A stretch of DNA of 64,000 bases from a virus: IMG/VR virus record IMGVR_UViG_3300017917_001914, positions 35,207 through 99,206 of that record. The stretch is one strand, 5' to 3'. How positions within the stretch are numbered: the first letter of the stretch is position 1; every line of letters starts with the position of its first letter. Made by a program: the position numbers and the translations under genes. This document shows, in pieces, positions 951 through 13,905 of the stretch. The notes beneath the pieces were generated by a model. It was given only the letters and a program-made list of their open reading frames with translations, did not search any database and was not told the DNA's origin.

Positions 951-977
951 AAATACTTCTTACGAAGTAAAGTATTT
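951..977. repeat. Inverted repeat upstream of the sheath gene
   Basis: AAATACTT (951-958) pairs with AAGTATTT (970-977). Inside it ACTTC (955-959) can alternatively pair with GAAGT (964-968). The left arm overlaps an exact T4-type TATAAATA (948-955). Function unknown; it may be a second operator or an RNA hairpin in the sheath leader. Confidence 0.4.
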
Positions 978-992
978 TGGTTTTTTTTATAA

Positions 993-1001
993 TATTTATC
1001 A
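993..1001 (+). promoter_or_regulatory. TATTTATCA box before tail sheath
   Basis: One copy of the recurring TATTTATnn box, ending 35 bases before the sheath ATG at 1037. A T4 late-type TATAAATA also lies farther upstream at 948-955. Confidence 0.45.
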
Positions 1002-1036
1002 ATAAAAATAAATTTACAAATAAAAAAGACAAACTA

Positions 1037-4000
1037 ATGGCATCAAATCAAAAAGTATTCGTATCTCCTGGAGTATATACTTCTGAAGTTGATTTAAGTT
1101 TCGTAGCACAAAGTGTGGGGGTTACCACATTGGGAATTGTAGGTGAGACCTTAAAAGGTCCAGCTTTCGAACCTATCTTTATACGAAATTTTGATGAATT
1201 CACAAATTTCTTCGGTGGAACTTCTCCAGAAAAATTTATAAATACACAAATTCCAAAGTACGAAGCGGCTTACATTGCCAAATCCTACTTACAACAATCT
1301 AACCAATTATTCGTAACGAGAGTGTTAGGATTATCTGGTTATGATGCAGGCCCATCTTGGTCTATAACAACTAAAGCTAATGTTAACCCAACAACGGTTG
1401 ATTTCTTTTGTGAAAGTGCAACTACAGTTAATTGTGTTAATGAATGTGTTGACTTTAAAACTATAAACTATTCTGTTGATTTCTCGGCATGTACAAATAG
1501 TGTTGATAGTGTAATATTCACAAACACATCTAACTTACCGGCAGAAATATCTACAATTTTATATGAACCTTACGAACAATTTGATGGTTCTACAAGTTCA
1601 TTATATCAAGATATGTCTAAACAAATTTTTGATATTGTTTCAACACCGGCGAAAGAAGATACTTCAATCTATTACTACGGAGCAATACCAACTAGTGTAT
1701 ATTCAGGATTAAGTGAGGTATATACAGGTGAAACTAATGTTTATGAGGTTGATAATGTAAGTGCTAACTTATGTAATTATTCAGCACCTCAAAATGACCC
1801 TTGGTATTATTCATTATTTGATAATGTGGGTAATGCTGTTTATACAGGATATTCGTTTTGGTCAGTTGTAACAGGTTTAACATTAACACCTATTATTACA
1901 ACAACAACATCAACATCAACTACTACTACAACTACAGACCCTTGTACGACAACTACTTCAACCTCAACTACTTCAACAACAACGGCAAAACCGGTTAATT
2001 GTTATACAGGTACATTGATTGGGGTAATTTATGTTTATTCAGGAACTGCATATACTGATTATGATGATTTAGTAATTGCAACACTTCGTTCAAGAGGTTT
2101 ATCAACATATGGTCTTGATGATGGCCCTGTTTATGAAGTACCGGGTGGTGTTGATGGATATGGTAATTTTGATGGTTCAGCGGTTACTTTAGATTGTACA
2201 GGAACATATTCAGGAGTTACTAAGAATCCATTCTCAACTTTTGGAGTTAATATAACAAGTAAAGATGGTGACCAATATTTCTTTGAAACATCATTCTCTA
2301 ATTCTGATTCAAAATACATTAGTAAAGTATTTGGTTCAACTAACTTCTCTAAACCAAGAACTGTAGTTCCATTATTTGTTGAAGAAAGATTCCAAGCTTT
2401 ATTAACAAATGCTTGGAGAATGGGTTATATTAGAGGTTTAAATTGTGAATTAACGGCATTACCTGATGCTAGACAAGCTAAAGACCCTACGTCAATTGCG
2501 TTTTACTTAGAAAAATATCAATCTCCGGTATCTCCATGGGTTGTATCTGAATTAAGAGGTAATAAAGTTTATAACTTATTTAAATTTACTACAATTGCTG
2601 ATGGTGATTCTGCGAATGTTGATATTAAAATATCGTTAGCTAACATGTCATTTAATAATGGTACGTTTGATGTATTAGTAAGAGATTTCTTCGATACTGA
2701 TTCGGCACCTGTTGTTCTTGAAAAATATACTAATTGTAGTATGAACCCTCAAGACAATTCATTTATTGGTAAGAAAATTGGTAGTTTAGATGGAGAATAT
2801 CCATTATTATCAAGTTATATTATGGTTGAAATGAATGAGGATGCACCGATAGACGCACTTCCTTGTGGATTCTTAGGTTATGATTATAGAGAATATGCTG
2901 GTGTAAGACCACCATTCCCATTAATCAAAACTAAATATTACTATCCTGGTGAAGTTGTTTACAACCCACCATTTGGATTAGCATCAGGAGCGGATGACGC
3001 AACAACAAGTGCAGGTGATAATGTAAGAAGAACTTACTTAGGTATTTCAGATACTGAAGGTATAGATGTTGATTTCTTCCAATATAAAGGAACACAACTT
3101 CCATTAGACATTTGTAATGATACAGAAGGATTACCTTGGAACTTTAGAACAAGAGGTTTCCACATGGATAAAAATGCGAGTGGTATTACTATTCCAAATA
3201 TATTTGTAACTAGTGGTACACCGGCATTCTTTGTTGGTGATGCAACATTTACCTCAGACCCTGATAGTGAAGAAAATCCTTACTACAGAATTTTCGCACG
3301 TAAATTTACATTATTAGTTAAAGGTGGTTTTGACGGATGGGATATCTATAGAGAATTTAGAACCAATAAAGATGAGTTTATGTTAGGTAGAAGAGGTTAC
3401 TTGAAAGGTGCTTGTCCTACTATCAAATATCCAACAGCTACAGGTTGGGGAGCATTTAAACAAATCATTGTTGCTGATAATACTCAAGATTACGCTAACA
3501 CAGATTATTACGCATATTTATTAGGTCAACAAACATTTGCAAACCCTGAGGCGGTAAATATTAACGTATTTGTAACACCTGGTATTGATTATGTAAATAA
3601 CTCTAATTTAGTTGAAAATGCAATTGATATGATTGAATATAGTAGAGCGGATTCATTGTACATATGTACTACTCCTGACTACAATATGTATGTTCCATCA
3701 AATAGTAATCAATTAGATTTTATTTACCCTCAAGAGGCTGTAGATAATTTAGCTAATTCAGGTATTGACTCTAACTACACAGCTACTTATTACCCTTGGG
3801 TATTAATGAGAGATACGGTTAATAATACACAAATTTATATACCGGCAACGGCTGAAGTTACAAGAAACTTAGCGTTAACCGACAACATTGCGTTCCCTTG
3901 GTTCGCTGCGGCGGGTTATACAAGAGGTATTGTAAACGCGGTTAAAGCGAGAGTTAAATTGACTCAAGAGAATAGAGATACTCTATATCAAGGTCGTTTA

Positions 4001-4390
4001 AATCCAATCGCAACTTTCTCTGATGTTGGAACAGTAATTTGGGGTAACAAAACTCTTCAAATTAGACAATCGGCTCTTGACAGAATCAACGTAAGAAGAT
4101 TATTACTTCAAGCACGTAAATTAATATCTGCAGTTTCTGTTAGATTATTATTTGAACAAAACGATGCTAAAGTAAGACAAGATTTCTTAGATTCAGTTAA
4201 CCCAATATTAGATTCGATAAGAAGAGATAGAGGTCTTTATGATTTCCGTGTAACAGTTTCGTCTGACCCAGCTGATTTAGACAGAAATCAAATGACAGGT
4301 AAGATTTATATCAAACCAACCAAATCGTTAGAATTTATAGATATTACGTTCTATATTACTCCAACCGGAGCGTCTTTCGAGAATATATAA
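1037..4390 (+). CDS. Contractile tail sheath protein (T4 gp18-like)
   Basis: Sheath subunits stack around the tail tube and contract to drive it into the cell. The N-terminus MASNQKVFVSPGVYTSEVD and the C-terminal region with VRLLFEQNDAKVRQDFLD and RDRGLYDFRVTVSSDP are classic sheath signatures. At 1117 residues it is much longer than T4 gp18 (659). The excess includes a surface-type insertion with a Thr/Ser-rich run at about residues 288-318, interrupted by DPC, followed by a Cys-containing beta-rich segment. I chose ATG 1037 over an in-frame TTG at 977, because MASNQKVFVSPGVY is the usual sheath start and the stretch before it is low-complexity leader. The tube gene follows after one intervening HAD-like gene. 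Function is firm; the role of the insertion is unknown. Confidence 0.95.
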   Translation: MASNQKVFVSPGVYTSEVDLSFVAQSVGVTTLGIVGETLKGPAFEPIFIRNFDEFTNFFGGTSPEKFINTQIPKYEAAYIAKSYLQQSNQLFVTRVLGLSGYDAGPSWSITTKANVNPTTVDFFCESATTVNCVNECVDFKTINYSVDFSACTNSVDSVIFTNTSNLPAEISTILYEPYEQFDGSTSSLYQDMSKQIFDIVSTPAKEDTSIYYYGAIPTSVYSGLSEVYTGETNVYEVDNVSANLCNYSAPQNDPWYYSLFDNVGNAVYTGYSFWSVVTGLTLTPIITTTTSTSTTTTTTDPCTTTTSTSTTSTTTAKPVNCYTGTLIGVIYVYSGTAYTDYDDLVIATLRSRGLSTYGLDDGPVYEVPGGVDGYGNFDGSAVTLDCTGTYSGVTKNPFSTFGVNITSKDGDQYFFETSFSNSDSKYISKVFGSTNFSKPRTVVPLFVEERFQALLTNAWRMGYIRGLNCELTALPDARQAKDPTSIAFYLEKYQSPVSPWVVSELRGNKVYNLFKFTTIADGDSANVDIKISLANMSFNNGTFDVLVRDFFDTDSAPVVLEKYTNCSMNPQDNSFIGKKIGSLDGEYPLLSSYIMVEMNEDAPIDALPCGFLGYDYREYAGVRPPFPLIKTKYYYPGEVVYNPPFGLASGADDATTSAGDNVRRTYLGISDTEGIDVDFFQYKGTQLPLDICNDTEGLPWNFRTRGFHMDKNASGITIPNIFVTSGTPAFFVGDATFTSDPDSEENPYYRIFARKFTLLVKGGFDGWDIYREFRTNKDEFMLGRRGYLKGACPTIKYPTATGWGAFKQIIVADNTQDYANTDYYAYLLGQQTFANPEAVNINVFVTPGIDYVNNSNLVENAIDMIEYSRADSLYICTTPDYNMYVPSNSNQLDFIYPQEAVDNLANSGIDSNYTATYYPWVLMRDTVNNTQIYIPATAEVTRNLALTDNIAFPWFAAAGYTRGIVNAVKARVKLTQENRDTLYQGRLNPIATFSDVGTVIWGNKTLQIRQSALDRINVRRLLLQARKLISAVSVRLLFEQNDAKVRQDFLDSVNPILDSIRRDRGLYDFRVTVSSDPADLDRNQMTGKIYIKPTKSLEFIDITFYITPTGASFENI

Positions 4391-4446: not shown

Positions 4447-5268
4447 ATGTTAAAGAATAAAATTTTAAGAGAAGGTATTGATGAGGTGGGAGCACCTGAT
4501 GAAAAATACTACGCATTTGATTGGGATGATAATATTGTTACTATGCCAACCAAAATTATTTTAAAAGATGATGGAGGACGTGAAGTAGGTATGTCAACTG
4601 AAGATTTTGCGGACTATAGAACTGAGATTGGGAAAGAACCTTTCGAGTATGAAGGACATACTATAGTAGGTTTTGCAGATGAACCATTCAGATATTTTAG
4701 AGATAAAGGAGACAAACAATTTATTGTTGATGCTATGTTAGCAAAACCAGGGCCGGCTTGGCCTGATTTTGTTGAGGCGATAAACAATGGGTCTATTTTT
4801 TCGATAGTGACTGCAAGAGGTCATAACCCTAATGTCCTTAAACAAGGAGTTTATAATTATATTGTTTCAAATACCAATGGTATTGATTCAAATGAATTAG
4901 TTAAAAATTTAGAAAAATATAGAGATTTGGCGGATGAGGAAGAAATATCTAAATCTGAAATGATTAAAGAATATCTTGATATGTGTCGTTTTTATCCGGT
5001 GTCTTTTGGTGAGGGTTCTGCGACTAACCCTGAAGAAGGTAAGATTAATGCTTTAAAAGAATTTGTTAGTTATGTTAAAGATGTTTCAAAAAAAATTCAA
5101 AAGAAGGCTTTCTTAAAAAATAAGATAAGTAATTATTTTGTACCAAAAATAGGTTTTTCTGATGACGATTTAAGAAATGTGGACGTAGTTAAAAAACATT
5201 TTGAGCAAGACCCAGAAAATATTATTAAAACTTATTCAACAGCAGGAGGAATAAAAAAAGAATATTAA
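4447..5268 (+). CDS. HAD-superfamily hydrolase-like protein
   Basis: A 273-residue protein whose N-terminal part carries AFDWDDN (about residues 23-29), the DxD nucleophile motif of haloacid dehalogenase-type phosphatases and kinases, and IVTARGHNP (about residues 120-128), matching HAD motif II with its Thr. A later acidic stretch, FSDDDLRNVD, could supply motif IV. HAD enzymes use the first Asp to accept a phosphoryl group. The substrate cannot be told from sequence. It sits alone between sheath and tube, after a hairpin terminator, so it may be a morphogenesis-linked moron. The C-terminal third is Lys-rich and lacks further recognisable motifs. No TATTTAT box precedes it, so it is probably read through from the sheath. 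Confidence 0.75.
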   Translation: MLKNKILREGIDEVGAPDEKYYAFDWDDNIVTMPTKIILKDDGGREVGMSTEDFADYRTEIGKEPFEYEGHTIVGFADEPFRYFRDKGDKQFIVDAMLAKPGPAWPDFVEAINNGSIFSIVTARGHNPNVLKQGVYNYIVSNTNGIDSNELVKNLEKYRDLADEEEISKSEMIKEYLDMCRFYPVSFGEGSATNPEEGKINALKEFVSYVKDVSKKIQKKAFLKNKISNYFVPKIGFSDDDLRNVDVVKKHFEQDPENIIKTYSTAGGIKKEY

Positions 5269-5437: not shown

Positions 5438-5926
5438 ATGGCTGATTTATTAATGAAAATGCCCATACCTTACGAACCTAAAAGACAAAATAGGTTTATT
5501 TTACGTTTTCCTTCAACATTAGGGATTAATGAATGGTTCGTAGAATCGGCTGCAAGACCAAAAATAACAATTAATCCGGTAGCAATTCCTTTCTTAAATA
5601 CTGAAACTTATGTTGCAGGACGTTTTACGTGGGGAACTATTAGTGTTAAATTCCGTGACCCAATTGGGCCTTCGGCGTCTCAAGCTCTTATGGAGTGGGT
5701 ACGTTTATGTGCTGAATCAGTTACAGGTCGTATGGGGTACGCTGCGGGTTATAAAAAAAATATTGACCTTGAGATGTTAGACCCAACAGGTGTTGTTGTG
5801 GAAAAATGGATATTAGAGGGAACTTTCTTATCTGATGTTAACTTTGATTCTTTGGGGTATAGTACAGATGCGTTAGCAACAATTTCTGCAACACTTCGTA
5901 TGGATAGATGTATATTAGTTTACTAA
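5438..5926 (+). CDS. Tail tube protein (T4 gp19-like)
   Basis: This is the building block of the inner tail tube through which DNA passes. The 162-residue length matches T4 gp19 (163). Family signs include KRQNRFILRFPSTLGINEWF near the N-terminus, AARPKITINP, a central TWGTISVKFRDPIGPSASQAL, and the C-terminal VNFDSLGYSTDALATISATL, in the order typical of tube proteins. It is flanked by its own upstream TATTTAT box and a downstream terminator, so it can be expressed at high level as a separate unit, as expected for a protein needed in many copies. Confidence 0.93.
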   Translation: MADLLMKMPIPYEPKRQNRFILRFPSTLGINEWFVESAARPKITINPVAIPFLNTETYVAGRFTWGTISVKFRDPIGPSASQALMEWVRLCAESVTGRMGYAAGYKKNIDLEMLDPTGVVVEKWILEGTFLSDVNFDSLGYSTDALATISATLRMDRCILVY

Positions 5927-6040: not shown

Positions 6041-6796
6041 ATGGATGAGAGTTTAATTAACGCAGGAACGGAAAATTTCACATTACCACATGATGTGGTA
6101 TCATTACCAAGTGGTGGGATTTTTTATAAATCTAAAAAAAAGTCGGTTAAAGTTGGTTATTTAACGGCATCTGATGAAAATTATTTAATTGGTGCAATAT
6201 CAGGTAAAGAAAATGTTGTTTTAACATTATTAAGAAATAAATTATATGAACATGATTTACGTCCTGAAGAATTGTTAGATGGTGATGTTGAAGCTATTTT
6301 AATCTTTTTGAGAAATACTTCTTTTGGCCCGGAATATATAATTAATTTAGTTGACCCACAAACTAATAAAACATTTAGTCATACTGTTATATTGGATGAA
6401 TTAAATATTAAAAAATCTCAAAATCAACCAGATGAAAATGGTTTTTTCACTACAATGTTACCTAAAACAGGTGTTACTGTTAAATTAAGACCAACAACTT
6501 TTTATGATACTGTTGAATTAGATAAGATGGTTGAACAATATCCGGTTGGAAGACAGGCACCAAGAATTACTTGGAAATTACAAAAACAAATTGTAGAAAT
6601 TGATGGTGATAATGATAAAGGTAAAATAGCTATGTTTGTAGATACGTTACCAATTATGGATTCTAAATATATAAGAACATTTTTAAGAGAAAATGAACCA
6701 TCGTTAGACCTTAAAAGAACTGCAATCGCCCCATCAGGAGAAATGGTATCTTTCGAGATAACCTTTGGGGTGGAGTTTTTTCGGCCTTTCTTTTGA
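6041..6796 (+). CDS. gp26-like baseplate hub / tail assembly chaperone
   Basis: A 251-residue protein with the gp26-type opening LPSGGIFYKSKKKSVKVGYL and SDENYLI, and an ending with SFEITFGVEFFRPFF. T4 gp26 is a hub assembly factor. The slot between tail tube and tape measure is where other contractile and siphophages place their tail assembly chaperone pair, which commonly uses programmed frameshifting. Here the gene ends ...TTC TTT TGA, and the +1 frame continues without a break into a 47-codon extension (next entry). Six Ts at 6776-6781 and TTTTGA at 6791-6796 are candidate slip sites. The gp26 link is family knowledge plus pattern; the chaperone role is inferred from position. Own upstream TATTTAT box. 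Confidence 0.65.
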   Translation: MDESLINAGTENFTLPHDVVSLPSGGIFYKSKKKSVKVGYLTASDENYLIGAISGKENVVLTLLRNKLYEHDLRPEELLDGDVEAILIFLRNTSFGPEYIINLVDPQTNKTFSHTVILDELNIKKSQNQPDENGFFTTMLPKTGVTVKLRPTTFYDTVELDKMVEQYPVGRQAPRITWKLQKQIVEIDGDNDKGKIAMFVDTLPIMDSKYIRTFLRENEPSLDLKRTAIAPSGEMVSFEITFGVEFFRPFF

Positions 6797-6938
6797 TTAC
6801 CGACAACTTCTAATTGAGGAATATTATTTGATGGCTAGATTTTTAAGAACATCATATAATGACTTCAACGGGATGCCTACATATGTTAGAAAATTTTTAA
6901 TAAACAGAATAATAGACGATAATACACCAAAGACGTAA
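6762..6938 (+). CDS. Out-of-frame extension of gp26-like gene, probably reached by +1 (or -2) frameshift
   Basis: This frame is open from 6762 to TAA at 6938, overlapping the gp26-like gene's last 35 bases in the +1 frame. A shift at TTT TGA (6791-6796) gives ...RPFF followed by DYRQLLIEEYYLMARFL, then YNDFNGMPTYVRKFLINRII. The motif 'MP...R.f.i' near a chaperone C-terminus resembles small proteins found beside gp26 in other T4-type phages. Independent translation could only start at ATG 6831 (35 residues, MARFLRTSYNDF), which would discard conserved-looking sequence before it. The site UUU UGA resembles the +1 shift site CUU UGA of prfB. The coding character is visible; the frameshift is inferred. 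Confidence 0.6.
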   Translation, partial: PLGWSFFGLSFDYRQLLIEEYYLMARFLRTSYNDFNGMPTYVRKFLINRIIDDNTPKT

Positions 6939-6960
6939 ATTAAAATATGTCTTTGGTGTA
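6923..6960 (+). terminator. Hairpin terminator after gp26-like unit
   Basis: TACACCAAAGAC (6923-6934) and GTCTTTGGTGTA (6949-6960) form a perfect 12-bp stem around a 14-base loop. The stem overlaps the end of the extension frame (stop at 6936-6938) and is followed by TTTATTTAT. Confidence 0.75.
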
Positions 6961-6962
6961 TT

Positions 6963-6983: not shown

Positions 6984-8864
6984 ATGCAAGACGCGGGAAG
7001 TAATTTAGATTCTAGTGCCAATAAAGGTAAGGACATTCTTAATGAGTTAGGTAAAGCATTAAAAAGTAATTTTAGTGTTGAGGCCATTGGTATGGTTGTT
7101 GCAGAACTTGATACTGGTGCTAGTCTACTATTAAAACAATTTGGTGTTGGTCAAGAAATGGCTCAAACATTAAGAGCAACCATGGCGGATGCTGTTAGTA
7201 ATGTTAGAGCTTTAGGTGGTGATATATCGGACGTTATTAAAACTCAAGAGGCTGCATCAAAAGCGTTAAGTAGAAATGTTATTTTATCTGCCGAAGTTAC
7301 TAAAGACCTTTATGCAACATTTAAAGTAACCGGAATAGAAGCTGGTAGAGTTGTTACGGCTATGAAAGATGTTGGTATTGGTTCAGGAAAGGCGGCTGAA
7401 GAGATGAAAAAAGTTGTTGATATTGCGGTACAATCAGGTGTAAATGCTCAGGCGGTATCTGAAAAAGTTGTCGCAAATATGGATGCACTTAATAAATATA
7501 ATTTTGAAGGTGGTGTATCAGGATTGGCTAAAATGGCGGCACAAGCGACAATGTTAAGAATTGATATGGGTCAAACTTTAGCTTTTGCTGAAAAAGTATT
7601 TGACCCTGAAGGTGCTATTGAAATGGCCGCGGCGATGCAAAGATTAGGGGTATCTCAAAGTAGTTTACTTGACCCATTAAAAATGATGGATTTAGCTCAA
7701 AATGACCCTGCTGAGTTACAAAATCAATTGGCTGAAATGGGTAAACAATTTGTTCAGTTAAATGAAAAAGGCGATTTTGAAATTATGCCGGGGGCAAAAC
7801 GTCAATTAAGAGAAATATCCAAAGCTATGGGTATTCCTTATGAACAATTAACAAAAATGGCGTTAGGTAGTGCTGAGTTGGAAGATAAAATGAGTAAAAT
7901 TCGTTTTCCTGATTTAGATATAGATGAGGACAAACAGAAGATGATAGCCAATATGGCTGAAATGGGTAAAGGTGGTAAGTATGAAGTACAAGTTAAAGAT
8001 GAGGAAACAGGTCAAACAATAACAAAGGCTATTGATGAATTAACTAAAAAAGATGTTGAAAATCTTGAGAAAATGGCTAACACTGCTCCAAAAACTATGG
8101 AGGAATTGGCTAAAGACCAATTAAGTGCTTTAGAATCTATTGCTGCGGATATTAAATCAATGGCTGATAAAACAGGATTGGCTGCTGCAAGAACTAAAGC
8201 GATGGGAACTACTTTAAGTTATGGTAGAGATTTATCAAAAAGTGTTGCAAAAACTCTTTCACCAAAACAATTAGAAACTAAAACTCTTGCTGCAACTATT
8301 GACGCAGGAATTGATAAAAATTTAAACGTTCTTCAAAGATTAACTGATGGTGAAATAACAGCATCTCAAGCAAGAAAAGAAGTTGGTGAAAATTTAACAA
8401 AATTGAATTCATTACTAAAGGCTGCGTATAATGAAGGTCTTGATAGTGCTAAAGAGGAACAAAAAAAATTAAATGAAAAATATCCTGTTCCTGAGCAACT
8501 TATGAGACTTGCAACAGGTGATTTACGTGGGGTTAAAAGTAGTGAAAAACCTCGAACTAATATTACTAGAGAAATTGGAAATGTTAGAAATACATCTTCA
8601 ATACCGACAAATAATACTCAACCTCAATCAAGTAACGTATCTACTGAAAAACCAATTGAAATTACGTTGAATCATAATATTGATTTAAAAACAAATGGTA
8701 ATATTGATACTAATCAAGTTGTTATGGCTCTTAAGAATACAGATGTTCAACAAGGTATGGTTAGTGCCTTAAAAGAAGCTATGTATAATAATGGATTATT
8801 AGCACCAACTTCAAATAAAACACAACTAATGAATCCTAACTTATCTCAAAATTTAGTTGGATAA
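6984..8864 (+). CDS. Tape measure / tail length-determining protein (gp29-like)
   Basis: The 626-residue product is Ala/Met/Lys-rich and almost entirely predicted helical, with Gly-punctuated helices such as GQEMAQTLRATMADAV and EMAAAMQRLGVSQSSLLDPL. This is the usual look of tape measures, which set tail length and occupy the tube lumen. It is close in length to T4 gp29 (590) and lies directly after tube and chaperone and before baseplate hub genes, the standard order. The last quarter is less ordered and Asn/Ser/Pro-rich, with NTSSIPTNNTQPQSSNVSTE. There is no lysozyme or peptidase motif. Function is inferred from composition, length and order. Confidence 0.78.
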   Translation: MQDAGSNLDSSANKGKDILNELGKALKSNFSVEAIGMVVAELDTGASLLLKQFGVGQEMAQTLRATMADAVSNVRALGGDISDVIKTQEAASKALSRNVILSAEVTKDLYATFKVTGIEAGRVVTAMKDVGIGSGKAAEEMKKVVDIAVQSGVNAQAVSEKVVANMDALNKYNFEGGVSGLAKMAAQATMLRIDMGQTLAFAEKVFDPEGAIEMAAAMQRLGVSQSSLLDPLKMMDLAQNDPAELQNQLAEMGKQFVQLNEKGDFEIMPGAKRQLREISKAMGIPYEQLTKMALGSAELEDKMSKIRFPDLDIDEDKQKMIANMAEMGKGGKYEVQVKDEETGQTITKAIDELTKKDVENLEKMANTAPKTMEELAKDQLSALESIAADIKSMADKTGLAAARTKAMGTTLSYGRDLSKSVAKTLSPKQLETKTLAATIDAGIDKNLNVLQRLTDGEITASQARKEVGENLTKLNSLLKAAYNEGLDSAKEEQKKLNEKYPVPEQLMRLATGDLRGVKSSEKPRTNITREIGNVRNTSSIPTNNTQPQSSNVSTEKPIEITLNHNIDLKTNGNIDTNQVVMALKNTDVQQGMVSALKEAMYNNGLLAPTSNKTQLMNPNLSQNLVG

Positions 8865-8901: not shown

Positions 8902-11900
8902 ATGTCAGACAGTCCATTATCATTTGCATCCACGGCATCCTTTAGAAATTCTCTAATGGCGAAAAACTTGGCCCCATATAGTGTCCAAGGGGTTTATACA
9001 CCACCAGCAAATCAAGTTAATTACGAAACTGTTTTAGGTGTTAGTAATGTTATTGATTCACCTGGTGAATTAATTACAGGTGACCCGTATGCAAATTTAT
9101 TATATCCATTAAATGAATATGGGCCAAATGGAGGTTATAATTTACAAATAAATTATAACGGGCCTCCATTACCTGTTAATTCTAATCAAGGAGAATACAA
9201 CCCTAATGATACTGTGTTAGATTTAGTTAATGAGTTTTTTATTGACGCTGCGTACATTCAAAACAGATATGGGCCTGCCGGTAGTTTTAACGATATGGTT
9301 ATTATTACTGATGTTGAGAATAACAATAAGATTTATCAACCTTATTGGGAGCCACCAAGTTTTGCACCCTCTTCATATTCACCATATAATATTTTATTAT
9401 CACCAAATCCTATTGGTAGTAATGGTTTATTATCTCAAGATTCATTTATCGCGAGATTTGGGGCATCAGAATTAAACTCTTTATTGAAAAAAAGAATTGA
9501 CGCTGAATTATTCCAAAACACATTAGGTCAAATCAACTTACAATCTCTACAAGACCCTTTTGAGATTAGTATGATGTTGTCAGGACAACAACCTTTAGTT
9601 TATAAAAATTGGAAGATTACAGTGCCTGAAAACCCTGTTGTTGCGGCTGCCGACTTCTTAACAAGATTAGCGGGGGCTTATTGGCCTGTTTCCTTAATAC
9701 CGGGGGATTACTTTAATGATAATAACGAAAATAGTCAAACACAACAAACATCAAACGCCTTAAATACTGTAAATCAATTAACAGGTGGTTTATTAGGCCC
9801 AATATTAAATTTTAATAGAAGTGGTTCTCAAATATTTTTGGCTAACACCGGTAACGGACAAAGGTCTGTTTTATTTGCAAATATAAATTACAATAGATAT
9901 CAACCATCTTATGATAAAGATTATGGTTTATTATTTGGTGTTGCACAAGGACTTGTTAATTTATTAGTTCCAAATATTAATCCGGGTAATGGTACACTAG
10001 TTGGTGGTTATTATGTTGGTAATAGAACATCAGAACCTTCTTACATTACATCACCCCCAAATCAAATACCGGTTAACGCCTTTGGTCAACAAGACCCTTC
10101 ACCTGTTTATGGCCCATCTGAGATGGGTATTTTATATGAAGGTAATGAATCAACACTTAGTAATTTTGGTTTAGGAGGTAAGTCCTATAGTGATGGTGGT
10201 GGTATTGACGGAGGATTTGTTTGGGTATCTCCAAAATATAAAGCCAATGCAGGATTCCGAGCAATACCGGGAGGTGGTTCGGGAACAATGGATGAAGATT
10301 ATCAATTGGTTAGTGGAAACATTACAAGAGATGAATCTACAAATATTGAATTTAAAGAAACATCAATATTAGACCAAACTCAAAGATTAATTGATTCGGC
10401 GGATGGTGTTACAGGTATTGCCCGATTAAAACATGTGGGTAATGCGATGAACCAAATTAGTAAAGTATTCAATGATGGATATAAAGAAATTACTAAAGGT
10501 TCTCAAGTGTTGTCGTATACAGATAATACAACCGGTGGTGCTGCGGGAATTGAATATTGTAGAGTTTTTACAAAAGACAATCCTTATTACACATATAATG
10601 ATTTACAAAAAACAGATGGTATAACAACTTCAGGAAGAAGGTTTACTCACTCTGTGTTAGATAATACATATAACTTAAACATAGTACCATTAAGAAATCC
10701 GGGGTCAACAAACATTATTGCTAATAATGTTAATGGAACGGGGGGTTATGCTAAAAAATATATGTTTTCTATTGAAAATTTAGCATGGAGAACTTCAAGT
10801 AGACCTGGGTTTACTTACGATGAATTACCTGTTTGTGAAAAAGGGCCAAATGGTGGTAGAGTTATGTGGTTTCCACCTTATGATTTAAAATTTTCAGATA
10901 GTAGTACTGCAAATTGGAATGATACTTCATTTTTAGGTAGACCTGAACCAATTTATACATATAAAAACACTAGTAGAAGTGGACAATTAAGTTGGAAGAT
11001 TATTGTGGATAGTCCTTCGGTTATGAATACTGTTGTTGAAAAACAATTAAAAGGTCAAAATAAAGAAAGAATTAATTCAATTATTGACTCATTCTTTGCT
11101 GGATGTGTTAAATATGACATCTATGATTTAGCATTAAAATTTAATACAATTCCAACTAAGGATTTATATACGTATCAAGAGATTTTAAGTAATCCAAGAT
11201 TAACGGATGAAGAGTTAAAGAATGTTAGTGCAAATATTCCAAGAGAAAATTCTGTACCTCAAGGTGGTGCGGGTAGTCCGGCTGATTCTTCAGTACAAAC
11301 GGCAAATCCTGACACATCTATTGATGATTTTAAAAAGAATTATTCACAATTAGCGTTTTATTTTGATAATGATATTCCTGACCCAAAATCAAATGGAACA
11401 GTTTCTTCTGTACCATATGATGTAACATATGCAGCTTATACAAGTGCCGAAAATAAAAAAACATATGTTGATACTGCAAGTGGAATTTTTAATGAGGGTA
11501 GTATTAATAGAAATGTTGGTGAATTTTTCACAAATATTGTAGAATCTAATTATAAAAAAATTGCTCTTAATGATAATAATTTCATAAAAGATGCTTATAA
11601 TATTCTAAAAGAGAAAAAAGGAACTATAAGTATTCAAATGGTTGGTTCGGCATCTGCGACAGCAAGTGTTAAATATAATGAAAATTTGTCTAAACGAAGA
11701 AATGATTCGGTTATTGACTTTTTAAGAGCGTATCCTGTTGGTGGTGAAACATTGGCACAATTTTTTGATAATAAAACATTACAAGTAACATTACAAACAG
11801 GTGCTGGTGAACAAATTGTTATTCCTCAAGGAGAATCAGGTACAGGTACACAAGTTAATTGTACTCAAGATGTAAAAGATAAGAATGGTCAAGTTACTAA

Positions 11901-13905
11901 ATTTTCTCAAGTATATTCTACTGATGCTATGGCGTGTAGAAGAGTTAAGATTAATAATATTCTTGTAACACCAACGGTAACTACAACAACGACTACTTTA
12001 AAAGTTGAAATAACTACACCTGAAGTTAGTGCAACAACAATCAATACTATAAAACCTGTTCAAACTGTTGAAATACAACAAAAATTAAAAGAAGGTATTG
12101 GTAAAAGAATTTTAAGACAATTATTAAGTGAATGTGATTATTTTGAAGTTATTAAAGAAAATAATCCTATACTATATGGGTCAATTGCGGATAAGATTAA
12201 ATTTTTTAATCCTGCATTTCATTCCATGACACCTGAAGGGTTAAATTCAAGATTAACATTTTTAAATCAATGTGTTAGACCTGGTGAAACAATACCGGTT
12301 ATTGGTACGGACGGTAAACCAAAATACAATGATGCTGTAAATACTTCTTTTGGTGCACCACCGGTTTTAATATTAAGAATTGGTGATTTCTACAATGGTA
12401 AAATAATACCAAAAACAATTTCATTTTCATATGAACCATTAGTGTTAGATATGAATCCTGAAGGTATAGGTGTTCAACCAATGATTGCAAATGTTAATTT
12501 AAGTTTTGATATGATTGGTGGTATGGGATTAGCTAAACCTGTAGAACAATTACAGAATGCGTTATCATTCAACTACTACGCAAATACTGAAATTTATGAT
12601 GAAAGAGCAACATGGACTGAAGACACTTCAGCTTTAGATGCTAAATTAATTCAATCAATATTAGATGCTCAACCACCGGTTACGGTTAACAATGTTCAAA
12701 ATGGTGTTGTTAATGATGGTGGAAATACCATTGGGGAAATATTAACTAATATTCCGGTAACTAATGGTCAAACAGGTGAAATAACCTATATGAGTATAAT
12801 GGATAAAATATTAGACGCAACTAAAGAATATTATACTAATGTTTTAAATCAAAGTGATAGTATAGTTAAATCGTACAATTATGGTGTGTGGCAATTAATT
12901 ACTCAAGATAGATTATATACTTCGGGAGAAATAAGTTTAAATTCTAGTAGTATATTGGCACCAATTTACGGAAAACCGGAAGGTGTTGAAACTAAAGTGG
13001 ATTCATTGTTTAGTACGTTTATTTCAGATATTAATGCTGATAATCCAACAAATAAAAATTATATCATATCACGATTAGTTGGTTTTAAATTTACTGATGC
13101 GACAATTCAAAGAGTTAAAACTAATATGAATCAATATATTAATACATTAAAAAGTGATTACAGTAGTGGTTTATTTACTAAAATTCAAGAAATAGTTGTG
13201 TTAGAACAAAGTATGGTTCAAATAATTAGAAAAATTAATTTAGTTACAACTAAAACTGATGGTAAGATTTTAGATACGGGAGTTCCAAGAGTTTATACAA
13301 TTTCAGGTACAACTGAAGTTAATAGTGCTAGTCTTGGGTCTCCATTAGATACATATCAAGAGTTATGTGATGATTATCGTTTAGTTGGTCTTAGATTAGA
13401 TGAATTTAATGTATTGATGGAGTCTGAAAAAATAATAACAACTATTACAGTTCCATATGAAGGGCCGGGTGAATTTGAACCAATATCGAAAGAGTTTGCA
13501 ACAGCATCAGTTGAAGACAAACGTCAATTTATGGTTATGGCACAAATTTTTAATGATAAAAATAAATTAACGGAATTTAAAAATGCAATTATTAGTGGTG
13601 AGTTAAAGAATGATAATAAATTAGTTAGAAAATTTAATAACATTTGTGATGATTTTGCGGATTTAACTAAAAAAGAATTAATTGCTGAACAAAAATTTAT
13701 TAAAACAATTAGGGATAAAGAATCGTATTCAAAATTTGTAAATCAAACCGCTTATCCTAAAGGTAAGTTAAGAAAATTTACATATACTACTGTTCCTGAC
13801 CCTGCAACTGAAACACAACAAAAAACAGATATTGCGAATTTATATAAAACAGTTAATGTGAATAATGATAAATTAACATTTGACGGTAAAATAAAATTTG
13901 ATTAA
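8902..13905 (+). CDS. Giant baseplate/tube-initiator protein with an OmpA-like domain
   Basis: A 1667-residue virion protein. Around residues 650-715 it reads GRVMWFPPYDLKFSD, then GRPEPIYTYKNTSRSGQLSW, and around 1155-1210 VLILRIGDFYNG, NPEGIGVQPMIANVNLSFD and LQNALSFNYYANTEIYD. These are patterns of baseplate hub and tube-initiator proteins of contractile tails. Between them (about residues 810-1020) lies an OmpA-type peptidoglycan-binding region: opening LAFYFDNDIP, central SIQMVGSASATASVKYNENL followed by SKRRNDSVIDFL, and closing ACRRVKINNI. OmpA domains bind diaminopimelate-containing peptidoglycan, so this could anchor the baseplate tip in the host wall. The domain is interrupted by insertions and its key Asp/Arg geometry cannot be verified by eye. 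It ends 2 bases before the LysM-like gene. Confidence 0.8.
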   Translation: MSDSPLSFASTASFRNSLMAKNLAPYSVQGVYTPPANQVNYETVLGVSNVIDSPGELITGDPYANLLYPLNEYGPNGGYNLQINYNGPPLPVNSNQGEYNPNDTVLDLVNEFFIDAAYIQNRYGPAGSFNDMVIITDVENNNKIYQPYWEPPSFAPSSYSPYNILLSPNPIGSNGLLSQDSFIARFGASELNSLLKKRIDAELFQNTLGQINLQSLQDPFEISMMLSGQQPLVYKNWKITVPENPVVAAADFLTRLAGAYWPVSLIPGDYFNDNNENSQTQQTSNALNTVNQLTGGLLGPILNFNRSGSQIFLANTGNGQRSVLFANINYNRYQPSYDKDYGLLFGVAQGLVNLLVPNINPGNGTLVGGYYVGNRTSEPSYITSPPNQIPVNAFGQQDPSPVYGPSEMGILYEGNESTLSNFGLGGKSYSDGGGIDGGFVWVSPKYKANAGFRAIPGGGSGTMDEDYQLVSGNITRDESTNIEFKETSILDQTQRLIDSADGVTGIARLKHVGNAMNQISKVFNDGYKEITKGSQVLSYTDNTTGGAAGIEYCRVFTKDNPYYTYNDLQKTDGITTSGRRFTHSVLDNTYNLNIVPLRNPGSTNIIANNVNGTGGYAKKYMFSIENLAWRTSSRPGFTYDELPVCEKGPNGGRVMWFPPYDLKFSDSSTANWNDTSFLGRPEPIYTYKNTSRSGQLSWKIIVDSPSVMNTVVEKQLKGQNKERINSIIDSFFAGCVKYDIYDLALKFNTIPTKDLYTYQEILSNPRLTDEELKNVSANIPRENSVPQGGAGSPADSSVQTANPDTSIDDFKKNYSQLAFYFDNDIPDPKSNGTVSSVPYDVTYAAYTSAENKKTYVDTASGIFNEGSINRNVGEFFTNIVESNYKKIALNDNNFIKDAYNILKEKKGTISIQMVGSASATASVKYNENLSKRRNDSVIDFLRAYPVGGETLAQFFDNKTLQVTLQTGAGEQIVIPQGESGTGTQVNCTQDVKDKNGQVTKFSQVYSTDAMACRRVKINNILVTPTVTTTTTTLKVEITTPEVSATTINTIKPVQTVEIQQKLKEGIGKRILRQLLSECDYFEVIKENNPILYGSIADKIKFFNPAFHSMTPEGLNSRLTFLNQCVRPGETIPVIGTDGKPKYNDAVNTSFGAPPVLILRIGDFYNGKIIPKTISFSYEPLVLDMNPEGIGVQPMIANVNLSFDMIGGMGLAKPVEQLQNALSFNYYANTEIYDERATWTEDTSALDAKLIQSILDAQPPVTVNNVQNGVVNDGGNTIGEILTNIPVTNGQTGEITYMSIMDKILDATKEYYTNVLNQSDSIVKSYNYGVWQLITQDRLYTSGEISLNSSSILAPIYGKPEGVETKVDSLFSTFISDINADNPTNKNYIISRLVGFKFTDATIQRVKTNMNQYINTLKSDYSSGLFTKIQEIVVLEQSMVQIIRKINLVTTKTDGKILDTGVPRVYTISGTTEVNSASLGSPLDTYQELCDDYRLVGLRLDEFNVLMESEKIITTITVPYEGPGEFEPISKEFATASVEDKRQFMVMAQIFNDKNKLTEFKNAIISGELKNDNKLVRKFNNICDDFADLTKKELIAEQKFIKTIRDKESYSKFVNQTAYPKGKLRKFTYTTVPDPATETQQKTDIANLYKTVNVNNDKLTFDGKIKFD

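Follow-up and report, generated by a model that had tools for sequence, protein, structure and literature searches.

In the 64,000-nt stretch of viral DNA analysed here (the window), we found a locus that would encode the chaperone for tail assembly in a contractile-tail phage of the T4 type. A single gene there very likely gives rise to two chaperone forms through a +1 shift on TTT-TTT-C at 6776-6782. Judging from the sequences of the window and its relatives, the programmed frameshift seems to be real and deeply conserved, and its direction is very probably +1. The initial annotation had proposed a programmed +1 shift where the gp26-like gene ends, in the slot between tail tube and tape measure, and the proposal gained support from the conservation of the two frames and from selection in the +1 frame. 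Most ribosomes would stay in the 0 frame as far as the stop at 6794-6796 and make a 251-aa short form; a minority would move +1 on the tandem UUU-UUU-C, continue to 6935 and make a predicted 298-aa long form (TAC-NC), whose C-terminal domain has 51 residues. If lambda gpG/gpGT is a guide, the region common to both forms would coat the tape measure and the extension would bring in tail tube subunits. The sequences themselves show two overlapping, conserved frames, both under selection, a lack of alternative starts in many relatives and constraint on the nucleotides of the motif; from these we infer that ribosomes shift at this place, the direction of the shift (+1 rather than -2), the slipping codon, the ratio of the forms and the roles of both. 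The features of the locus are as follows.

5438-5926, plus strand: tail tube (gp19-like) gene, upstream (phrog_4542, E 2.4e-25)
6041-6796, plus strand: gp26-like gene, predicted tail assembly chaperone, short form (TAC-N), 251 aa (PF12322, phrog_150, AF2 model)
6776-6782, plus strand: proposed shift site TTT-TTT-C, P-site tRNA-Phe moving +1 onto UUU or UUC (codon counts, synonymous diversity)
6782-6784, plus strand: CGG Arg codon after the slip codons, rare, candidate slow A-site codon (codon usage)
6783-6938, plus strand: +1-frame extension (TAC-C), GLSFDYRQLLIEEYYLMARFLRTSYNDFNGMPTYVRKFLINRIIDDNTPKT (kept in all relatives, pN/pS 0.32, profile match to the gp51 C-terminus)
6785-6787, plus strand: CCT codon, Pro in the 0 frame, giving in the +1 frame the first two letters of Leu CTN (CCT in 193/195)
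6794-6796, plus strand: 0-frame stop TGA (stop type and distance vary among relatives)
6921-6962, plus strand: terminator-like hairpin with a 17-bp stem and T-rich tail, overlapping the stop codon of the extension
6984-8864, plus strand: tape-measure-like gene, downstream, 626 aa (position and composition)

The 0-frame protein belongs to the T4 gp26/gp51 family. In the profile search it matched PF12322 with 33.6 bits, above the cut-off of 24.5, and it matched phrog_150 with an E-value of 1.9e-11. Its AF2 model (pLDDT 86.9) found the 'baseplate hub' of Bacillus phage SP-15 and Aeromonas gp26 in BFVD, where the named matches were mostly gp26-like baseplate hub proteins, pointing to the same fold. 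The PDB fold search returned no solved structure similar to this model. Single-sequence AF2 of the fusion protein reached a pLDDT of 32, and the modelled fold is that of the 0-frame protein only. The PF12322 gene is single in the 99-kb record, which is incomplete, and therefore no second gene like gp51 was found in it.

Regarding the surroundings, the gene occupies the chaperone slot between tail tube and tape measure, with the tape measure of the window assigned by position. The same slot holds the locus in isolates too, and the gene at the tape-measure place is annotated as tape measure in immuto, SP-15 and LIS04. Profile searches with the tape-measure-like gene of the window gave no convincing family match. 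The hairpin at 6921-6962 sits directly 5′ of this gene, and its stem encodes the conserved C-terminal NTPKT of the extension. We also observed a long Thr/Ser-rich stretch (TTTSTSTTTTTTDPCTTTTSTSTTSTTTAKP) within a virion protein, the tail-sheath-like ORF at 977-4390 (1137 aa), and a Thr run is present in 8902-13905 as well. The gene at 4447-5268, between sheath and tail tube, carries a HAD-like motif (FDWDDNIVTMPT) and had no match in the family search. No tRNA genes were detected in the window.

The initial annotation had described the end of the gp26-like gene followed by an open +1 frame of 47 codons, and we reproduced both at the same coordinates. The gene ends with TTC TTT TGA (6788-6796), and the overlapping +1 frame is open from 6762 to 6938; beyond the 0-frame stop it holds 47 codons, the first GAT at 6795 and the last ACG at 6933-6935, before a TAA stop at 6936-6938. 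At this locus alone the signal is weak, as about 1 % of Markov-1 shuffles stay open as long. Relatives were collected by viral-contig scans using the window protein, the family alignment and the immuto, Mel-JY01 and SP-15 homologues as queries (from Flavobacterium, Microcystis and Bacillus phages, respectively), and annotated isolates were added. This resulted in 310 usable loci with 195 distinct gene ends: 70 window-like, 73 immuto-like, 50 Mel-JY01-like, SP-15 and Streptococcus GXN1. In all 195 the +1 extension is kept and runs on for 139 nt or more after the 0-frame stop. The same two-frame layout occurs in Listeria LIS04 and Rhodothermus RM378, and nine MAG loci with about 35-64 % identity to the immuto-type query share it. 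The genome collection searched for hosts yielded no window-family proteins, its MAGs giving more distant relatives only.

Purifying selection acts on the extension in the +1 frame alone, and it covers also the codons that precede the first ATG. For the window family, pN/pS of the extension was 0.32 in the +1 frame versus 0.87 and 1.39 in the other frames, and 0.30 in the first 11 extension codons, which lie upstream of the ATG at 6830. The remaining (-1) frame closes within 8-35 nt in this family. The extensions have a common pattern, roughly GL..eYR..L....l...(gg)fs...vy.mP...RkfyinkI. In the public records of immuto, SP-15 and Mel-JY01 the frameshifted product is unannotated: the extension appears as a truncated hypothetical protein in immuto and SP-15 (NC_055915, NC_031245; L162, L164) and as a separate hypothetical protein in Mel-JY01 (PP395634; L163).

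To characterise the shift site, codons of the 195 loci were aligned on the Phe-Phe (or Phe-Leu) dipeptide. The conserved site belongs to a family YTT-YTT-Y..-CCT. The first motif codon is TTT in 191 of the 195 loci (CTT in three, TTC in one), the second is TTT in 162, CTT in 29 and CTA in 4, and the third is CGN or TGG in nearly all, with TAC/TTC in the CTA class. The T6 run at 6776-6781, which the initial annotation had named as a possible place of slippage, falls on a conserved TTT-TTT with almost no synonymous variation: in each of the three families the first TTT and the CCT had a synonymous diversity of 0.00 and the second TTT one of 0.00-0.11, against an upstream background of 0.5-0.8, and one codon 5′ of the site the value was already 0.28-0.61. 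Diversity was also low in the window family at codons -6 to -4 (ACC TTT GGG), where a local stimulator or the +1-frame TTG may be the reason. Of the window-family loci, 69 have Arg behind the second TTT, and every one of them uses CGN and none AGA, whereas in the gene body AGA makes up 81 % of Arg codons (550/679), CGG none of the 679 and CGC one. AGA at this place would destroy both the re-pairing of UUU-C to UUC and the +1-frame Phe. Binomial figures overstate the certainty, related sequences not being independent; the pattern recurs in separate families. The share of CCT among Pro codons elsewhere is 22-45 %.

A slip on the first Phe codon fits every sequence except GXN1 (TTC-TTT-C), and a slip on the second codon fits all except the four CTA loci and LIS04 (TTT-TTT-AGT); +1 re-pairing is possible on at least one of the two codons in essentially all loci. 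The peptide would be identical for either slip, and the two codons may also slip in tandem. Depending on the phage, 12, 15 or 21 nt separate the second Phe/Leu codon from the 0-frame stop, and in the window family this stop is TAA in 60 loci, TAG in 6 and TGA in 4. The suggestion of a prfB-like shifty stop at UUU_UGA was accordingly dropped, as both the identity of the stop and its distance vary and most relatives end in TTC/TTT-TAA. We found no conserved SD-like stimulator: most loci have matches of 3-4 nt, and GGGGTGGAG is partly constant in the window family only. The search for downstream RNA structure gave an unremarkable z-score of -1.45 on folding of the window and a weak consensus in ungapped alifold, and thus no conserved structure.

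As an alternative to frameshifting, ribosomes could initiate independently at TTG 6765 or ATG 6830, which would make the downstream ORF a small gene in its own right. Annotators do call short ORFs at this place, the ATG exists in the window, and almost every window-family locus has TTG 6765 in the +1 frame, because of which internal initiation is conceivable for that family taken alone. However, ATG 6830 is absent from a whole subgroup of relatives (L049-L079), and 37 of the 195 loci have no ATG, GTG or TTG in the +1 frame ahead of the 0-frame stop. In 26 loci the opening of the +1 frame is just 5-11 nt away from the motif's second Phe/Leu codon, on its 5′ side, and 11 loci lack even CTG, ATT, ATC or ATA there. 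The second frame is thus conserved and overlapping, with an extension that has no start of its own, and from the missing starts together with protein-level selection upstream of ATG 6830 we conclude that translation enters the +1 frame from the gp26-like gene; a separate gene seems very unlikely. Within the clade examined, no relatives were found in which the frames had become well-separated genes with their own starts, an arrangement seen only in T4 proper (genes 26 and 51). The homopolymers at the site could also raise the suspicion of a split gene created by a one-base sequencing error in the T-run, a caveat of the initial annotation. This has a negligible probability: 195 distinct loci and sequenced isolates show the same frame relation, and hundreds of independently assembled contigs agree in layout with several isolates, which excludes a base-calling error.

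The remaining explanations accept a shift and differ in how it would occur. The initial annotation had allowed +1 or -2, of which +1 is upheld here. A -2 shift on the T-run, as in phage Mu, would give the same product with one extra Phe, and the T6 of the window and the T7 of many relatives would let tRNA-Phe re-pair two bases back. The frame alone cannot separate the two directions, but 29 loci with TTT-CTT-TGG and 4 with TTT-CTA would re-pair poorly, UUC two bases back being ill-suited to tRNA-Leu, which makes -2 quite unlikely. Slightly less improbable, and a rival for the exact site only, is a +1 slip on CCU (6785-6787) instead of the Phe codons. It draws on the near-fixation of CCT and on the +1 shift on CCC in Listeria phage PSA and relatives (PMC5009743). 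Against it, CCC would be the better slip codon and is almost never used, retention of a Leu (CTN) in the +1 frame accounts for CCT as well, and RM378, SP-15 and LIS04 have no Pro at that place; the fixation of TTT-TTT and of CGN, never AGA, would moreover be left without reason. Transcriptional slippage on the T6-T7 runs, producing a mixed mRNA population, we regard as highly improbable. T6 is short for this process, and in the TTTCTTTGG and TTTCTATAC variants the longest run is three T; the TTTCTTTGG variants fit a slipping tRNA and not slippage of transcription on a T-run. A +1 slip on the Phe codons is therefore the reading we prefer. The predicted junction peptides of the window phage are given below.

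+1 on Phe: TAIAPSGEMVSFEITFGVEFFGLSFDYR / VEFFGLSFDYR
-2 shift: VEFFFGLSFDYR
Slip on CCU: VEFFRPSFDYR
Slip on UUU_UGA: ...PFFDYR

For immuto 2-6A, an isolate with the same layout, the predicted +1 junction peptide is FFPEDGPDGGVDIPIGVSFLGLTPEYR.

We compared the extension with a set of cyanophage, Vibrio and Pseudomonas phage sequences and T4 gp51. The profile of the other side was built from the T4 gp51 C-terminus, the -1 extensions of S-RIM8, Bakedbeans and Cygsa01, and the S-SCSM1 short ORF, and hhalign returned a modest match with an E-value of 6.4e-6 and a probability of 85 %. In this comparison, the extension resembles the C-terminus of T4 gp51. The extension-only comparison was the informative one, the profile of the whole fusion matching T4 gp51 weakly. 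A tree of 28 proteins split the T4, cyanophage, Vibrio and Pseudomonas types (two genes or -1) from the clade of the window (+1) with support of 100/99, so the +1 system appears to characterise a deep sister clade of the T4/cyanophage group. The jumbo phages Atu_ph07 (L330) and LR756511 (L329) fall in the +1 clade, yet have the extension in the -1 frame; their branches are long or unresolved. This suggests a further direction change or a separate start, and LR756511 may use its own ATG instead. In cyanophage S-SCSM1 (L334, 2471-3374) a short 'gp51' ORF lies in the +1 frame at the stop and may start on its own ATG; that of S-RIM8 is in the -1 frame.

The T4-like chaperones treated by Vladimirov and colleagues are reportedly the products of T4 genes 26 and 51. 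According to the accounts in PMC10885494 and PMC12846349, Vladimirov et al. 2022 (doi 10.1016/j.virol.2021.11.003) identified which proteins of T4-like phages are the tail assembly chaperones and reported a frameshift, given as -1, in T4-like groups. The remark of the initial annotation that no well-described case existed for the T4 gp26 group is, on these accounts, out of date. As far as the same sources describe them, the systems of Vladimirov, Gautam and Davidson share with ours a PF12322 0-frame protein, a related C-terminal domain, the slot, the idea of a short and a long form, and a shift at the same Phe-Phe position. Their sites, however, are presented as -1 (GTTTTT), and the extension here is in the +1 frame; a -1 shift on a slippery heptamer of the lambda, P2 or T4-like GTTTTT kind does not fit, the -1 frame of the window family being closed as given above. 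T4 itself has two genes, 26 and 51, and G-T frameshifting was believed to be absent from it (PMC5009743), in contrast to the one gene with overlapping frames in the window phage. Measured against what those accounts report, the kind of gene and its place are known, and the direction, signal and extent of the frameshift appear to be new.

Among other known systems, lambda gpG/gpGT and P2 E/E+E' likewise have a gene before the tape measure that gives a short and a rarer extended form. Their shift is -1, unlike the +1 here, and the likeness drawn here is one of layout. The prfB (RF2) site CUU_UGA shares with ours the +1 slip of a YUU codon onto UUU/UUY, but its A site holds a stop codon and 3 nt upstream there is an SD-like sequence; our loci conserve neither, and their slip codons lie 12-21 nt before the stop. 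The prfB +1 shift is present in 72 % of the Bacteroidia genomes examined, and prfB of F. johnsoniae has a strong SD-like sequence despite the hidden anti-SD (PMC8710568). A 'very likely +1' shift was reported in the chaperone gene of the archaeal myovirus Halorubrum virus HSTV-2 (PMC5009743), a case like ours in the kind of gene, although from an archaeal virus and likened by description. The Listeria phages PSA, A118 and A500 have +1 shifts in structural genes (PMC5009743), that is, in a tail or capsid gene as here in a tail gene. There, unlike here, a CCC Pro codon slips beside a stop or pseudoknot and the products are structural proteins.

On balance we lean towards the view that a deep T4-type clade (Flavobacteriia-associated, Microcystis and Bacillus/Listeria/Streptococcus phages) uses an undescribed +1 signal, YUU-YUU-Y with a rare CGN/UGG and CCU, without a stop, SD or RNA structure, that the direction switched between -1 and +1 at the same Phe-Phe, and that T4 replaced the shift by gene duplication. 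To our knowledge, bacteria have few programmed +1 shifts, and the known ones are mostly of the prfB type, with a stop codon and SD. Here the +1 site is conserved over hundreds of phages, many of them in Flavobacteriia-associated data, whose ribosomes hide the anti-SD. Public records miss the long form or call it a stray hypothetical protein or 'baseplate hub assembly catalyst'. If our reading is true, a +1 shift operates without stop codon and SD, and with three solutions (+1, -1 and two genes) in one protein family the evolution of shift direction would become testable.
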